64,000 nt of DNA, from contig JACYLU010000008.1 in NCBI GenBank assembly GCA_015272325.1, forward strand, positions 1 through 64,000, in the 5' to 3' direction. Shown here one piece after another: positions 15,958-22,987 of this stretch; positions within the stretch are counted from its first letter, which is position 1, and every line of letters begins with the position of its first letter. Under the pieces are notes generated by a model. That model was not told the DNA's origin. It worked only from the letters and a program-made list of their open reading frames with translations, and ran no database searches. This DNA is from Synechococcales cyanobacterium C42_A2020_086 (GTDB taxonomy: Bacteria > Cyanobacteriota > Cyanobacteriia > Elainellales > Elainellaceae). Made by a program: the position numbers and the translations under genes.

Positions 15958-17070
15958 TCAGGGAATGTTTTGCTCCAGCTCAGAGATTTTGGTTTTGACG
16001 GCTTTCCAGGCCTGCTCGTAGAGAAAACGGCTGTTTCCCACATCCTTCAGGGACTTCAGACGTGCAAACATATCGAGCGGCGGATAAATGCTGGGATTGT
16101 TCAAATCAGATGGATTGATCAGCTCCGACTCACGCGCAGTTTGATTGGGTGAACCATAGCGAACGAAATTCGAGATGCGGGCCGAGACACGGGGTTCCAG
16201 CAAAAAATTAATAAACTGTTCCGCCAAGCGTTGATGCGGCGCTCCGCGCGGGATAGCCATATTGTCTATCCAAATAATGCTGCCTTCTTGGGGAATGGTG
16301 TAGCGCAGGTCGGGATTCTCCTGCATTACCTGTAGCATGTCGCCGTTCCATTCAAACGCTAGGTCAACTTCCCCCTGATTCAGCAGCTCCTGACCCGTGT
16401 CGGGAGCAAAGGCCGCAATAGTGGCTTTCTGTTGAATTAGAAAGTCGCGAGCCTGGTTGATTTGCTGCATATCTTGCGTATTGGGGTCATAGCCGAGAAA
16501 CATTAGTACTGCCCCAATTGTGTAGCGCGTATCGTCCATCCAGGCGATTTTACCGGCATACTGGGGCGTAAACATAGCGGTCCAGCTATCGATCTCCTGA
16601 CCAATCACCTCCAGGTTATAACCGATGCCTAGGGTACCCCACTGGTAGGGCAAACTGTAGCGGTTACCCGGATCATAGGTAGGATTGAGAAATGCAGGAT
16701 CCAGGTGTCTTAGGTTAGGAATGTGCTGTAGGTTTAGCTCTGCCAATAGCCCTTCGTTTGCCATTGCTTCCACCATGTAATCGGTGGGAAAGATCAGGTC
16801 ATAGTTGGTGTTACCAGATTGAATCCGCGAGTATAGTTCCTCGTTACTACCATAGGTCTGATAAATAATCTCGACGTTATATTTTTCCTGAAATGTAGTC
16901 AACACGTCTGGGTCAATATAAGTATCCCAATTGTAAACACGAAGAACATCGGCAACAGGCTGCTGCGCCCGAAGCTGCTGCCAACCCCAGGGCATGACGG
17001 TGATCGCCACTACAGTGCCAATTAACAGTGCCCAGAACAACAGCCTATGGGTTATGAGACATTTCATCAT
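15958..17070 (-). CDS. potD: Spermidine/putrescine-type ABC transporter substrate-binding protein (PotD-like)
   Basis: 370 residues. A signal/anchor helix (LLFWALLIGTVVAITVMPWG) leads into a class D solute-binding fold: DVLRVYNWDTYIDPDVLTTF, YDLIFPTDYMVEAMANEGLL, YSLPYQWGTLGIGYN and IIWIDNMAIPRGAP are PotD/PotF-typical. No lipobox Cys is evident, so anchoring by an uncleaved helix is possible. No permease or ATPase genes are adjacent, so the transporter partners must lie elsewhere. The ligand is inferred from family. Confidence 0.87.
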   Translation of the reverse strand: MMKCLITHRLLFWALLIGTVVAITVMPWGWQQLRAQQPVADVLRVYNWDTYIDPDVLTTFQEKYNVEIIYQTYGSNEELYSRIQSGNTNYDLIFPTDYMVEAMANEGLLAELNLQHIPNLRHLDPAFLNPTYDPGNRYSLPYQWGTLGIGYNLEVIGQEIDSWTAMFTPQYAGKIAWMDDTRYTIGAVLMFLGYDPNTQDMQQINQARDFLIQQKATIAAFAPDTGQELLNQGEVDLAFEWNGDMLQVMQENPDLRYTIPQEGSIIWIDNMAIPRGAPHQRLAEQFINFLLEPRVSARISNFVRYGSPNQTARESELINPSDLNNPSIYPPLDMFARLKSLKDVGNSRFLYEQAWKAVKTKISELEQNIP

Positions 17071-17281: not shown

Positions 17282-20200
17282 TCATGGGCACAGCCGAAGG
17301 GCATCAGGATGCGTTTGTAAATAGGCACTGAGCCAAGCACATCCCTGTTGCAGCAGCTCATCAAGATTTTTAACTGTCCACAGACGCACCATGCCGTCGG
17401 TTCCGGCAGTGGCCAGGCTGCGGCCATCGGCGCTGAAGCTGAGGCTGTAGATAGCGCCTGCTTCACTGCGGTATTCTGCGAGCAGGGTGCCGGCGCGGTT
17501 CCACAGGTACACGGTGCCGTCGGCTCCGGCAGTGGCAATAAACTCCCCGTTTGGGCTGAAATCAACCTGGTAGACGGCTCCCGCGTGCCCTTTGAGTTCG
17601 CGCAGCAGGTTGCCCGAGCGGTCCCAGAGACGGACTGTGCCTTCAGAGCCGGTTGTGGCAAAGAGCTTGCCATCGGGGCTAAAGCGGGCATCATAGACAG
17701 CTCCTGCCAGTTCCTGGATTTCCCGCAGTTGCTTGCCTGCCCGGTTCCAGAGGCGAATGGTGCCGTCAGAACCTGTGGTGACCAGGAGTTGGGCATCGGG
17801 GCTAAAATGAACACTTTTGACGCGCCCTTGATGCCCGTGCAGCTCTAGAACCAGCGTGCCATCCAGCGTCCAGAGGCGAGCTACGGATTCGGTGCCCACC
17901 GCCAAAATTTGACCATCGGGGCTAAAGTTGACGCTAAAGGCGCCGCCCTCATGTCCTCGCAGTTCGCGCACGAGCTGCCCATTGAGCCGCCAGATGCGAA
18001 CGGTTTCCTCAAAGCCGCCGGTTGCCAATAGATTGCCATTGGGACTAAAGCTGACGCTCAAGGACCTGCCCTGCAACCCCGAGAACACGGTAATTGGCTT
18101 GCCGCGACGACTCCACAGCCGCACGGTGCGATTCTGCCCGGCCGTTGCTAGGGTATTGCCGTCGGGATGAAAGCGGATGCTGTAGATCTCATTCTGGCGG
18201 CCGCCAAACTCGCGCAGCGGCGAATGAAAGCGCTCCCACAGGCGCAGGCTACCATCGTTGCCGGCTGTGGCGAGCATCAGGCCATCCGAGCTGAAGCTGA
18301 CGCTATTCACCCGGCCCTGATGCCCCTTAAAGTCAGCGAGCTGCTCGCCGCTCTCGTTCCACAGCCGCAGCACGCCATCATCCCCAACCGTAGCGAGCAC
18401 CAATCCATCTGGGCTGAAGCGAATTTGGTTCACCTTGCCCTGATGTTGCCGAAACTCGCTGATTTTTTGCCCAGAGCGCGTCCAGAGGGTAGCCCCATCT
18501 ATGCCTGCCGTAGCCAGCCGCTGGCCATCGGGTCGAAAGCTGAGGCTCGTAACCCAGGTATTGGGTTGGCCAAAGGCAGCAATAGCTTCACCATCGCGTG
18601 TCCACAGCCGCACACCATCTAGCCCCGCACTGGCAAGTGTCTGCCCATCCGGGCTGAAGCTGAGGGCATGGATTTCGCGCTGATGCCCGATCCAACTCTT
18701 GAGCAGGTGACCCGACAGCGACCAAAGGCGAATCGTGCGATCCTGCCCGGCAGTAGCGATCGTTTGCCCATCCGGGCTGAAGCTAACGGCCATGGCAGGG
18801 CCTCGGTGTTCCCGCAGCCAAGCCACTTGCCGACCGGTGGTCTCCCAGAGGCGTACCCCGTCAAAGCCTGCTGTAGCCAACAGCGAACCCTTAGGGCTAA
18901 AGCTAATGCTTCGGATCCAGCCCTGATGCCCCTTCAGCTCGGCCGCCAACCGTTGCTCTCGGTTCCACAGCCGCACGATTTGGTCTTGCCCGGCACTGGC
19001 CAGCAGCGAGCCATCAGCACTGAAACTGACGCTCAGCACCCGACCTTTATGCCCAAGCAGCTGATTTTTCTCGCGGATTCGGTCCAGAATGGACTGCAAA
19101 GCAAACAGCGGACTCGTCGCCGGGTAGCGCTGCAGCGGTCGCCTGCCAACGATCGATTTGAGTTCACGACCCGTTTGCATCGCCGAGAGCAGCGCCTCAA
19201 TTTGCTGAAACTCAAATTGCTGTAGCGCACTAACGCCCGCCTGCTCCAACCGAGTGCCGGCGCGAGCCTCCCGCTGCTGATAGATGGTGCTGCCGGCAAA
19301 AATGCCTGCTAGTCCGGCTAGGGCTAGAGAGGCCATCAGAACCGTCGAGCCAACGCGAATCCGCTGCGTCGCCTGCTGGTTGGCAGTCGCCAGAATCAGT
19401 GCCGCCTGTTTCTCTTGGGTGAGAATCCGCTGCACCTCCTGCTTGGCAAGTTCCTGACTGGCTGCCAAAAACCGGTAGTCCTGGGTGCTGAGATACTTGT
19501 CTGCCGCCCATTCCTGGGCTTGCAGCAACGCGGCTCCCCGAAGGAGACAGGCTTCATCGCGTTCCCCCGATGCTCGCCACGCGGCCAGCGCCTGGGCATA
19601 GGGACGCAGTTCCGCCAGCGCCTGCTCAACCCACTGCCAGTCAAACACGGCGGCATAAACCCGATTGTGGACCTGCAAATGGGACGTTCGATTCACCACG
19701 AGTCCGGTTAGACGTAGCTCCATCTGCTCGCTGCTGCCGTCGCTGGCTAGTCCGCCCATAGGTGAACGTTCTAGAACGCGCTGATATAGTCCCAATAGCT
19801 GCCCAGCCTGAGACTCGTTCTGGAGAATTCGGTCACGGATCGTGCGTAAGTGTTCGGGTTCATCCTGCGCTTCCCAGTTGTCTAGAATGTGGTGCTGCAC
19901 CACTGCTGCAATCCGAACCGCCTCTGTGCCCGCTGCAATTGGGGTATCTAGCTCCTGCACACAGCGACAGACCTTTTGTGTCAAGAAAGGCTGACCACCC
20001 GTCCAGTCTAGAATTTCGGCCAGCACCCGCTCGGGCTGCTCTGTTTTTGCCGCAAACCCAGCAGTAAGAGCACCTTTGGCCTGGGCGAGTTCAAAGCCTG
20101 TTAGCTCAATTGCCTGCCCAATATTGAACGGGGTGCGATCTTTACTCTGGATAAGGTTAGACGGCGTAGCTACCCCTAGTAAACAGAAAGTCAACCGTTT

Positions 20201-20716
20201 GTAGTCAGAATTGTCAGCACGATAGTTATAGCAGGCGCGGATAAAGGCAAAGAAATCATCTTTGAAAGTGACGCGCAAGATACTATCAATCTCATCAATG
20301 AAAATCACAATATTTTGCGAGAAATGTGTCAGCAGCACATCTTCAATAAATTCTTTCAGCCGCTGCACTGGAGAGAGTAGCTCATGCCGCTGCCACCAGG
20401 ATTTAAAGTCTATGGTTCGTGTCAGACCCAGTCCTCGAATGAGTTCTGAAACAATTGCTCCATACCACTCCGTTGGGGTGGCATTGCTCCCAATACCGGT
20501 GATATCGATGGAGGCACATTGAATACCTTCTTGCTTTAACCGTTTCATCATTTGCACTCGCAAACTGGATTTTCCCATCTGTCGCGAGTTAAGAACATAA
20601 CAGTAAATTCCTTGTTTCAGCGCAGCGTATAAATCGTGATCAGCCGGGCGTTCCACATAGGTAGGATGTTGATATTCTAGGGAGCCACCAACCTGATAAT
20701 AGTCGTCACTTAGCAT
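17282..20716 (-). CDS. AAA/STAND-like NTPase with transmembrane helix and 14 WD40 repeats
   Basis: 1144 residues. An AAA-like (AAA_35-type) NTPase occupies about 1-350: Walker A in LNSRQMGKSSLRVQ (about 42-55), Walker B in NIVIFIDEID (about 135-144), and the DRTPFNIGQAIEL segment typical of this family. A hydrophobic helix follows at about 456-478. From about 566 to 1120 I count 14 WD repeats ending xxRLW, enough for two seven-bladed propellers. It should be a membrane-tethered NTPase with a large ligand- or protein-binding sensor. Starts 18 bp after the upstream gene's stop, so it forms an operon with it. Confidence 0.9.
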   Translation of the reverse strand: MLSDDYYQVGGSLEYQHPTYVERPADHDLYAALKQGIYCYVLNSRQMGKSSLRVQMMKRLKQEGIQCASIDITGIGSNATPTEWYGAIVSELIRGLGLTRTIDFKSWWQRHELLSPVQRLKEFIEDVLLTHFSQNIVIFIDEIDSILRVTFKDDFFAFIRACYNYRADNSDYKRLTFCLLGVATPSNLIQSKDRTPFNIGQAIELTGFELAQAKGALTAGFAAKTEQPERVLAEILDWTGGQPFLTQKVCRCVQELDTPIAAGTEAVRIAAVVQHHILDNWEAQDEPEHLRTIRDRILQNESQAGQLLGLYQRVLERSPMGGLASDGSSEQMELRLTGLVVNRTSHLQVHNRVYAAVFDWQWVEQALAELRPYAQALAAWRASGERDEACLLRGAALLQAQEWAADKYLSTQDYRFLAASQELAKQEVQRILTQEKQAALILATANQQATQRIRVGSTVLMASLALAGLAGIFAGSTIYQQREARAGTRLEQAGVSALQQFEFQQIEALLSAMQTGRELKSIVGRRPLQRYPATSPLFALQSILDRIREKNQLLGHKGRVLSVSFSADGSLLASAGQDQIVRLWNREQRLAAELKGHQGWIRSISFSPKGSLLATAGFDGVRLWETTGRQVAWLREHRGPAMAVSFSPDGQTIATAGQDRTIRLWSLSGHLLKSWIGHQREIHALSFSPDGQTLASAGLDGVRLWTRDGEAIAAFGQPNTWVTSLSFRPDGQRLATAGIDGATLWTRSGQKISEFRQHQGKVNQIRFSPDGLVLATVGDDGVLRLWNESGEQLADFKGHQGRVNSVSFSSDGLMLATAGNDGSLRLWERFHSPLREFGGRQNEIYSIRFHPDGNTLATAGQNRTVRLWSRRGKPITVFSGLQGRSLSVSFSPNGNLLATGGFEETVRIWRLNGQLVRELRGHEGGAFSVNFSPDGQILAVGTESVARLWTLDGTLVLELHGHQGRVKSVHFSPDAQLLVTTGSDGTIRLWNRAGKQLREIQELAGAVYDARFSPDGKLFATTGSEGTVRLWDRSGNLLRELKGHAGAVYQVDFSPNGEFIATAGADGTVYLWNRAGTLLAEYRSEAGAIYSLSFSADGRSLATAGTDGMVRLWTVKNLDELLQQGCAWLSAYLQTHPDALRLCP

Positions 20717-20734
20717 CGGATCAGCCCCATAGGA

Positions 20735-22987
20735 TCACAATCGTTCCTGAAAGTAACGGCGATACAATTCACAGCGAGGTGCCACTAAATCTCCCTGGCG
20801 CTGAATCAGCCCCATGCTGTATAGCCTGTAGACATGGGGAATCGGCAACCGCACCGGCTCGATGCTAGACACCGTCTGTTGGACCGCCAGAGCGAGATCA
20901 GGAGATTGCTGCAGCGTCAGCCAGTGACGGCGCAGGTGGTCTTCGTAAATACCAGTTTGCGTGGTTGCTTCCGCCAGCAATTGTTCTAGGGGCAAATCGT
21001 GGCAGATGACCTGATAGAGCGCCCAGCGAATCAGATAGGGATGCCCACCCACCAACGCCATGAGCTGTGCAATTTCCGTCTGCCCCCAAGGCAGCGCATG
21101 TGCCTCAACCAGTGTGGCAACTTGGGCAGGAGTAAACTCACCTAGCTCGACCGGCAGCCCCACATTAAACGGCGACTGGTTGATATCCAGCCGGCCATAA
21201 TCCTCGGTGGAGTGCGCTACGACTAGGCGTAGCTGTTCCCACAGGTCCAAAGTCTTGGCTTCTTCATGCCAAATCCGCAGCATCGAAAAAAAGCCCTGCG
21301 CCACGTCTGGCACTTGAAACAGGCAATCGACTTCATCGAGCGCCAGCACCAGCGGACTCTCAATGGCTTCTAGCAGGTGGTCTTGCACATAGGTCGTGCA
21401 ATTAAAGATGCTGCCGCGGTCGGGGTCCCAGTAGTTATCGAGATAGGCAGGACGCTGCAACTTCTGGCTAATGCAGGCCGAGAACCAGCGCAGAAACCGA
21501 TCCAGCGTACCCAGGGCAGTTTCTTCCGCTTGACGCAGGTTGAGCCGCACGGTCCGATAGCCAAGCTGACTGGACCGATCGACAATTCTCGTCATCAGCG
21601 AAGTTTTGCCCATCTGCCGGGGGGCTTTAATCCGAATCAGAGCACCCGGTTTTGCAATCGCCTGATAGCAGCGCGTTTCGCCCGCTCGTTCTATGTAAAA
21701 CCGTGATCCTAGCTTCACCGAACCTTCGGGTATCTCAGGGAGCAGGGTAGCTTCCTCGTTTAGCAGTTGCGTCTCCGGCTGATTGGAGTATTCTGGCGAG
21801 GCAGGGTCCGTTACCGTCAGCCGTTCTGACCATTCTGGCGCTATACTCTGCCACTGCAACAACGGCAAACAGTCTCTAAACCATTCAATATCCGCAAGCG
21901 GCGTTTGCAGAAGCTGCTCTAGCGTTAACTCTTGGCACCAAATTCGGTACAGGGCGAGCTGCACTAAATAAGGATGTCCCTGAACCAGTGTAGTGAGCTG
22001 AGTCACCTGCGACAGAGTCCAGGTGAAGCCATAACGCTGCACCAGCCAATGCACCTGCTCCACCGTAAAGGGTTTCAGCTCAATGGGCAATCCCACATTC
22101 AGCGGTGATTGATTAAGGCTAGTGGGTAGCGCCGTCTCGCTAGAGTAGGCAATAATCAGCCGCAGTTGTTTCCAGATAGATTGGCTCTTTGCGGCTTCGT
22201 GCCAAGTCCGCAACAGTCCCAAAAATTCGTTGGCCAACTCGGGCGACTGAAAAACCTGATCCAGTTCATCTAGACTGAGGACGATGGGCTGCGGGCTGTT
22301 TGCCAGCAAATATTGCTCGAAGTACACCTTGGTACTGATTTTGCTGCCCAGGGCGTCGTGCCAATAATCGGATAGCTTGTCGGGTAGGTGCAGACCTAAG
22401 GTAACATTCACGCAAAGCCAGCGCAGCAGCAAATCTAGGTTTTGCAGCACCGTCCGATCGGCAAGCTGGAAACTCAGGGGCAACGTTCGGTATCCTAACT
22501 GTTCTGCTTGGTGGAGAATCCGCGCAATCAGCGAAGTTTTGCCCATCTGTCGCGGGGCTTTGATCCGGATCAAGGCTCCTGGCTGCGTAATCATCTTATA
22601 GCAGCTCGATTCTGCAGCAGCTCGCTCCACATAAAACAGGGAGTTCAGGGAGACTTGCCCTCCAGGCAGCTCAGGTTCTAGGATTTGAGCAGCACTGACT
22701 TCCTCTTCGAGGTTGGGCTGGGTGTAGTCTTCCGGTTCTAGTGTGAGCTGGAAGGCTCGAAAGCAGCTTTTGAGCGTCTCTTTATCAACCCCCGTTTCCG
22801 CCTTGAGCATGCGCACTAGCGTATCCACCGAGAGTTGGGTATGCTCGCTCAACTGTTCTAGGGTATAGCGATTTCCCCCATTCTGCTGAAGTTCTGCAGC
22901 GGCTCTGGCCGCCAGAAACTTCTCCAGCCCTTGAGCGGACAAAATTACACCTCGTCGGCGTCTATGGGGGGGACGATTGACCGGCAT
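20735..22987 (-). CDS. HTH-like domain plus two tandem AAA/STAND-like NTPase domains
   Basis: 750 residues. Residues 1-85 (HRRRRGVILSAQGLEKFLAA, then RYTLEQLSEHTQLSVDTLVR and FRAFQLTLEPEDY) form the HTH-like module that heads many cyanobacterial STAND sensor proteins. Two homologous NTPase domains follow (about 105-395 and 430-745). Each has Walker A IKAPRQMGKTSL, Walker B VLSLDELD or VLALDEVD, and LNQSPLNVGLPIEL or INQSPFNVGLPVEL. Both keep the P-loop Lys and acidic Walker B, so both may bind ATP. No sensor repeats of its own. First gene of the operon; a 10-bp duplication covers its start codon. Confidence 0.88.
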   Translation of the reverse strand: MPVNRPPHRRRRGVILSAQGLEKFLAARAAAELQQNGGNRYTLEQLSEHTQLSVDTLVRMLKAETGVDKETLKSCFRAFQLTLEPEDYTQPNLEEEVSAAQILEPELPGGQVSLNSLFYVERAAAESSCYKMITQPGALIRIKAPRQMGKTSLIARILHQAEQLGYRTLPLSFQLADRTVLQNLDLLLRWLCVNVTLGLHLPDKLSDYWHDALGSKISTKVYFEQYLLANSPQPIVLSLDELDQVFQSPELANEFLGLLRTWHEAAKSQSIWKQLRLIIAYSSETALPTSLNQSPLNVGLPIELKPFTVEQVHWLVQRYGFTWTLSQVTQLTTLVQGHPYLVQLALYRIWCQELTLEQLLQTPLADIEWFRDCLPLLQWQSIAPEWSERLTVTDPASPEYSNQPETQLLNEEATLLPEIPEGSVKLGSRFYIERAGETRCYQAIAKPGALIRIKAPRQMGKTSLMTRIVDRSSQLGYRTVRLNLRQAEETALGTLDRFLRWFSACISQKLQRPAYLDNYWDPDRGSIFNCTTYVQDHLLEAIESPLVLALDEVDCLFQVPDVAQGFFSMLRIWHEEAKTLDLWEQLRLVVAHSTEDYGRLDINQSPFNVGLPVELGEFTPAQVATLVEAHALPWGQTEIAQLMALVGGHPYLIRWALYQVICHDLPLEQLLAEATTQTGIYEDHLRRHWLTLQQSPDLALAVQQTVSSIEPVRLPIPHVYRLYSMGLIQRQGDLVAPRCELYRRYFQERL

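Follow-up and report, generated by a model that had tools for sequence, protein, structure and literature searches.

STAND ATPases of the NLR kind, e.g., Apaf-1, CED-4, the plant NLRs and the bacterial Avs proteins, possess a STAND fold with a winged helix, WD40 or TPR sensors and TIR, caspase or HTH outputs, and sensor and output are parts of one chain. Two adjacent genes, P0002 and P0001, are described here from a stretch of 64,000 nucleotides of Synechococcales cyanobacterium C42_A2020_086 (GenBank assembly GCA_015272325.1, contig JACYLU010000008.1, positions 1 to 64,000; in the following "the window"). Together with related pairs from other genomes they resemble the NLRs in fold, sensors and outputs, but they encode two proteins, each with a STAND domain of its own. 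Since effector, STAND domain and sensor are divided over two genes, the pair is not filed here as an NLR, although it may work like one. Proteins of the P0002 type are designated S, and those of the P0001 type W. On balance, we consider it probable, with some reserve, that the two genes constitute a split NLR-like receptor, in which W would sense and S would act through a mixed STAND assembly.

STAND proteins as such, and also a two-gene STAND operon, nSTAND2, are already in print. According to Kaur et al. (2021; PMC8195603), the nSTAND2 operon encodes two STAND NTPases, one of which bears variable effectors, mostly GT4 or HEPN; one NTPase is reported to be inactive. Both systems have two STAND genes together, which in the window pair are adjacent, codirectional and recurrent. 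Unlike the eroded NTP-binding partner in that description, all three NTPase domains of the window pair contain Walker A and Walker B motifs, and the family has other outputs (TIR, cyclase, GGDEF, HTH and others) as well as variable inputs. Neither GT4 nor HEPN was found in P0002 or among the Pfam families of 27 other S proteins scanned. A 2020 study (PMC7159879) contains an effector list which includes TIR, cNMP (cyclic nucleotide) cyclase, GGDEF and HTH, and overlaps with the outputs of S; S-W pairs differ from the system described there by having two genes, both of STAND type, and no recurrent third gene. VMAP ternary systems are characterised by vWA and MoxR genes next to a VMAP gene; at the 160 loci inspected, where vWA and MoxR models were not searched for, no family of neighbouring genes recurred. 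Two-component systems are similar, since variable inputs and outputs are located on separate proteins of adjacent genes, and W forms the end of several kinase-like chains; however, their coupling is by a histidine kinase core and a receiver, whereas the coupling modules of S and W are ATPases. Histidine kinase or receiver domains were detected neither in P0002 nor in residues 1-557 of P0001, the rest of which consists of two propellers; in other genomes, some W and one S carry HisKA or receiver domains. No description of an S-W pair was found in the open PMC literature; an earlier one in Leipe et al. (2004) is possible. An "Npun2340/2341 family" of the MNS clade is named as a STAND family in PMC8195603, citing Leipe et al. 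(2004); by its name, with consecutive gene numbers, it may be a candidate S-W pair.

Both genes of the window are open reading frames (ORFs) on the minus strand, separated by 18 bp (Table 1). The initial annotation of the window, which was made from the sequence, had reported this spacing, three related NTPase domains, an HTH-like head with two NTPases in P0002, and an NTPase, a membrane anchor and 14 WD40 blades in P0001; each of these features was recovered. The NTPases matched Pfam AAA_35 (PF14516) twice in P0002 (459.9 and 366.7 bits) and once in P0001 (103.6 bits; cut-off 27), and S-type and W-type domains were homologous with a probability of 99.8% in a profile comparison. A chance origin of the features is excluded by their length, domain scores and conservation.

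Linkage of S and W was counted from all listed AAA_35 matches in 13 chosen cyanobacterial genomes. The 135 matches, nine of which were discarded as being fragmentary or off-family, contained 63 S domains (in 62 genes) and 63 W; the types were separated by Pfam score (S at least 200 bits; W 60-140 bits, plus one at 50.4). An S was present within 5 kb of 52 of the 63 W, compared to about 0.73 expected from a crude density estimate, and S was upstream and codirectional in 48 cases, divergent in three and convergent in one. Conversely, 51 of the 62 S genes had a W within 5 kb. The 13 AAA_35 matches of the host genome corresponded to five S-W pairs, including that of the window, and two lone S. A first scan for named relatives with P0002 alone yielded none; an alignment scan confirmed 567 stretches, of which the best 80 were retained. 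In 80 regions chosen by S, a W was present for 69 of 82 S ORFs, being codirectional and downstream in 59 cases, 11 of these with a -4 overlap, when mechanical first starts were used as start codons; at the 80 named loci, a W was located within 3 kb of 60 of the 82 S ORFs. These S-centred counts are biased, since the 80 regions were picked around strong S matches. Of 291 genomes from the phylum, 101 had a Pfam AAA_35 match (92 above cut-off), and relatives of P0002 were present on 43 plasmid records. On a plasmid of Candidatus Chlorohelix (Chloroflexota; L262) the order is W then S, 10 bp apart, and S is a kinase-AAA_35-LuxR HTH protein. Clustering of 1767 ORFs from 160 loci revealed no third conserved gene beside the pairs; the largest neighbour family outside AAA_35 (ABC transporter, by eye) occurred at 15 loci, and a kinase-AAA_16-W cluster at nine. 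At L093 and G023:C6:1661367-1689384, six W and two S matches are clustered in about 28 kb.

Over 63 pairs, the distances between S NTPases co-vary with those between W NTPases (Mantel r 0.67; within-genome shuffles with 2000 permutations gave a mean of 0.17 and a maximum of 0.36). Nearest neighbours agreed in 33 of the 63 pairs; within-genome permutations gave 5.8 on average and never more than 15. This co-variation supports a long-lasting partnership. Walker A conformed to GK[ST] in 81 of 83 S and in all 69 W; Walker B was DE in 68 of the 69 W, but in S it was DE in 51, DD in 11 and neither in 21 of 83. Since the DE is kept in W and eroded in part of S, the sequences suggest W as the site of regulated hydrolysis.

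Inputs and outputs appear to be exchangeable. Pfam recognised WD40, TPR, FHA, GAF, PAS, CHASE2, dCache-HAMP-PAS, RR-PAS, HisKA and kinase inputs on W, e.g., a dCache-HAMP-PAS-W chain at L057 and an RR-PAS-W chain at L075; no input was recognised in the W of L070, L100 and L143. Near S genes, giant Pkinase-AAA_16-GAF-(PAS)-W proteins were encountered (L180:11040-16679, L213:13794-20015), with W at the chain end, a position occupied in known proteins of cyanobacteria by the core of a histidine kinase. Outputs on S were TIR, alone or behind a cyclase, kinase, CHAT-like, trypsin or caspase domain, and furthermore GGDEF, receiver, LuxR- and Cro-type HTHs and an M9-like head; TIR, caspase, trypsin, cyclase, kinase and CHAT-like domains precede the NTPase, and GGDEF follows it. 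A seed-based tally, which is redundant and misses types that were not seeded, yielded 42 input-output combinations among 112 pairs, with WD40 in 68 of 141 W, and TIR, the commonest domain of S besides the NTPase, in 67 of 165 S. The GGEEF motif was present in four of five GGDEF outputs, and 57 of the 67 TIR domains had a Glu six residues past the invariant Ser, presumably the catalytic position. The CHAT-like label derives from one Pfam match below cut-off (L055, 20.9 versus 24), and the Cro-type HTH was matched above cut-off in L063 and below it in L103. For the M9-like head, a label given by eye, no Pfam HTH match was obtained in five scanned S (L061, L082, L098, L058, L066), and its HTH nature is unconfirmed. 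HisKA was noted in seven W, by Pfam (L043, L078, L082, L094, L149) or by seed search only (L083, L091); HATPase_c was recognised only in L149, and the remaining six have the phospho-acceptor motif SHELRTPL and no recognised HATPase_c.

The statement of the initial annotation that no classical effector is fused is thus correct for the window pair, but not for the family, where S carries TIR, caspase, trypsin, cyclase, kinase, GGDEF and, below cut-off, CHAT-like domains. The HTH of P0002 stands at a place which is taken in other S by effectors, and hence fills the output slot. This makes an output arm a more likely role for S than that of the relay which had been proposed for the tandem NTPase. 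The most likely role of the window pair, whose output is an HTH, is to control transcription or to recruit a further effector; at the molecular level, the HTH of P0002 would most likely act by contacting DNA or by recruiting a partner.

A model of AAA2, the second NTPase of P0002 (residues 405-750; predicted local distance difference test, pLDDT, 93.3), shows the arrangement related to Cdc6/ORC by which the STAND class is defined, i.e., an NTPase with a helical and a winged-helix subdomain. Structural matches were the archaeal STAND ATPases PABY2304/SSO1545 (2qen, Z 20.2, 4.1 A, 305 aligned; 2fna_A, Z 20.1) and, furthermore, the NLR RPP1 (7crc_B, Z 17.9) and CED-4 (4m9s_A, Z 17.6). As modelled, AAA2 is of the same STAND fold as SSO1545, NLRs and CED-4. 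Sequence searches of the PDB returned no matches with P0002, and with W only the RecA P-loop. The first NTPase, AAA1, spans positions 2-273 of the 331 of Pfam AAA_35 and ends ahead of the C-terminal winged-helix part. In an alignment of ten S heads of the P0002 type, 20 columns were invariant. This type of HTH head also precedes NB-ARC/NACHT in two large proteins of G039 (L125, L127).

P0001 has one hydrophobic stretch, and its 14 blades were modelled as two seven-bladed propellers, which matched solved propellers with Z above 40; matches to the whole model were propellers throughout the list. This model is of low confidence in the membrane region and in the placement of the NTPase relative to the propellers (predicted template modelling score, pTM, 0.54; residues 442-479 below 50). 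Among the WD40-type W, 55 have a helix, and 43 of these show an excess of positive charge on the NTPase side; furthermore, a W on a Nostoc plasmid (L263:7124-11449) has an Amidase_3 domain, i.e., a cell-wall N-acetylmuramoyl-L-alanine amidase, following its WD40 part. Because of the charge bias and the amidase, a location of the WD40 repeats outside the cytoplasm is favoured, and the WD40 part of P0001 probably lies there. Downstream of W, a PotD-like periplasmic binding protein (named by eye) is encoded at positions 15958-17070 of the window.

Table 1. Features of the S-W gene pair; positions refer to the window.
Feature	Positions	Strand	Remarks
S gene P0002, 750 aa	20735..22987	-	ORF; AAA_35 twice; HTH-like head; predicted output subunit
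HTH-like head of S, aa 9-91	22715..22963	-	Pfam HTH matches below cut-off; conserved among S heads of the same type; output slot
AAA1 of S, without C-terminal winged-helix part	21851..22666	-	Pfam 366.7 bits; in the tree with the S lineage partnering dCache-HAMP-PAS W
AAA2 of S, complete STAND module including the winged helix	20744..21730	-	Pfam 459.9 bits; pLDDT 93.3; STAND fold (model); cognate to P0001 in the tree
Intergenic gap, S stop to W start	20717..20734	-	18 bp
W gene P0001, 1144 aa	17282..20716	-	ORF; divergent AAA_35, membrane helix and WD40; predicted sensor subunit
W-type AAA_35 NTPase region, aa 4-438	19403..20707	-	Pfam match 19811-20686
Predicted membrane helix, about aa 455-473	19298..19354	-	Hydropathy 1.92; model confidence low here
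WD40 propeller 1, aa 546-831	18224..19081	-	Structure model, blade count
WD40 propeller 2, aa 832-1116	17369..18223	-	Structure model, blade count

Two S domains in one protein were found, among the ORFs examined, only in P0002 and in its counterpart from the metagenome-assembled genome (MAG) RM1_2_2. AAA1 and AAA2 of P0002 are 47% identical. In the S tree, AAA1 grouped with the S of dCache-HAMP-PAS pairs (support 0.848) and, one node deeper (0.978), with two further S having the HTH type of P0002; AAA2 grouped with the S of L135-L138 and L156 (0.94), then with that of L139 (0.895). P0001 grouped with the W of L136-L139 and L156 (0.99), so that AAA2 and P0001 have matching sister groups in the S and W trees, respectively. 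The host genome has five W, none of which is of the dCache type. The tandem NTPases pointed out in the initial annotation are not the product of a simple tandem duplication, which is ruled out by the identity of 47% between the halves and their separate placements in the tree. Since AAA1 and AAA2 fall into different S lineages, P0002 looks like a chimaera, with an HTH-NTPase (HTH-AAA1) from another S lineage joined to an AAA2 which is cognate to P0001.

In the mechanism proposed here, W (P0001) would be the sensor arm, consisting of a STAND NTPase in the cytoplasm, a single membrane helix and, outside the cytoplasm, the two WD40 propellers, and S (P0002) would be the output arm, a homologous STAND NTPase bearing an output module, in this case the HTH. 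A signal on the WD40 part would cause the W NTPase to open; nucleotide-loaded W would then nucleate a mixed W-S STAND assembly via the cognate AAA2, in which the HTH head would be clustered or released, with a resulting change in transcription. The physical contact between W and S, the control by nucleotide, the location of the WD40 part, the binding of DNA by the HTH and the nature of the signal are features which we infer. A split STAND-like sensor had already been suggested in the initial annotation; pairing, co-variation and fold support this idea, while the role as a relay and the view of a simple tandem had to be changed.

Several observations weigh against a split receptor. In the 13 genomes, no partner was present within 5 kb for 11 of the 63 W and 11 of the 62 S; 13 of 82 S ORFs were alone in the 80 regions chosen by S, and at the 80 named loci 22 of 82 S ORFs had no W within 3 kb. 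Seven of the latter are situated at the locus edge, and among the remaining 15 are the two fragments of the interrupted L135 frame, as well as L137 and L156 (W about 4-6 kb away). A fused S-W ORF, which could have served as proof of contact, did not occur among the ORFs examined, and because linked genes share their history, the co-variation is not proof of contact either. No seeded domain was detected in 29 of 141 W and in 6 of 165 S, some of which were truncated by a contig end; it is the share of W which counts here. The HTH head of P0002, when taken alone, gave only a weak Pfam match (best 17.0 bits, cut-off 27) and nothing significant in a sequence search of the PDB (best E 0.078). With respect to topology, the charges flanking the helix of P0001 are balanced (2 versus 2), the pattern is reversed in four and balanced in eight of the 55 helices of WD40-type W, and 13 of 68 WD40-type W have no helix by the measure used. 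Finally, in RM1_2_2, the closest relative found, the S and W orthologues are on different contigs, with the break between S and W. The S orthologue is 71% identical and has kept its upstream neighbour; the W orthologue is in two pieces (79% and 67.5%) and has kept the PotD-like neighbour on the other contig. Since both reading frames are broken, errors of sequence or assembly are possible; the coverage of the S contig is 4.5 according to its title. RM1_2_2 thus retains both parts, yet counts against strict linkage. Separation of the genes in relatives, which the initial annotation had regarded as evidence against its proposal, is therefore seen in RM1_2_2 but not in the family, where 52 of 63 W are linked; likewise, the survey of co-occurrence and neighbours that it had recommended showed recurrent linkage of S and W, but also lone S and lone W, and no recurrent third gene.

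The existence of lone genes, the split in RM1_2_2 and the lack of a fused S-W protein among the ORFs examined would be expected if S and W were merely co-transcribed paralogues, which act separately and are adjacent for historical reasons. This is quite improbable, since linkage across genera is frequent (52 of 63 W versus about 0.73), the match of the phylogenies far exceeds that of within-genome shuffles, labour is divided, with mainly inputs on W and mainly outputs on S, and RM1_2_2 has kept both orthologues after their separation.

The outputs could indicate a dedicated anti-phage or abortive-infection system, with W recognising a phage component and S killing or halting the cell. The Glu at the presumed catalytic position in 57 of 67 TIR domains, the relatives of P0002 on 43 plasmid records and the HTH head preceding NB-ARC/NACHT in the two G039 proteins are in agreement with such a role, and TIR, caspase, trypsin, cyclase and CHAT-like domains occur in bacterial conflict systems, a similar list being contained in PMC7159879. 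The window pair, however, has no recognised toxic domain, and its HTH version would have to be an adaptor, or a regulator recruiting a killer encoded elsewhere. Moreover, dCache-HAMP-PAS, CHASE2 and GAF inputs and a GGDEF output are typical of environmental signalling, no third gene recurred in 160 loci, and PADLOC gave weak matches to P0002 (best 19.3 bits, E 9.4e-5) and for P0001 only a HEAT-ARM model in the WD40 part. A dedicated defence system appears rather unlikely. General environmental signalling by paired STAND ATPases, W replacing the histidine-kinase transmitter and S the response regulator, is possible but doubtful. It would fit with W at the end of input chains as they occur in histidine kinases (L057, L075, L180, L213), and with the HTH, GGDEF (GGEEF in four of five) and class III cyclase outputs of S; but TIR in 67 of 165 S, and the proteases, point to conflict rather than housekeeping. 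Since inputs and outputs are mixed, the data suggest that the S-W cassette serves both defence and general signalling.

As a tentative extension, S-W pairs could perhaps represent a third kind of cyanobacterial two-component signalling, in which coupling would be achieved by mixed assembly of two homologous STAND ATPases instead of phosphotransfer. W would be a plug-in transmitter, taking the place of the histidine-kinase core behind dCache, PAS, GAF, CHASE2 or WD40 inputs, and S a plug-in receiver with TIR, protease, cyclase, GGDEF or HTH outputs. New circuits would arise by head swaps, of which the HTH-NTPase fused onto a cognate NTPase in the window would be an example.

If the proposed split receptor is correct, the NLR logic, in which a sensor is combined with an ATP switch and an effector, can be divided into two halves and exchanged in the form of cassettes, similar to histidine kinases and response regulators. 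A testable function would become available for AAA_35, a family which is widespread in cyanobacteria and whose members are annotated in plasmid records as "AAA-like domain-containing protein", "hypothetical protein" or "TIR protein". One and the same switch would then govern effectors of the immune type (TIR, caspase) and ordinary outputs of regulation (HTH, GGDEF, cyclase), which would bear on the relation of immune receptors to signal transduction.

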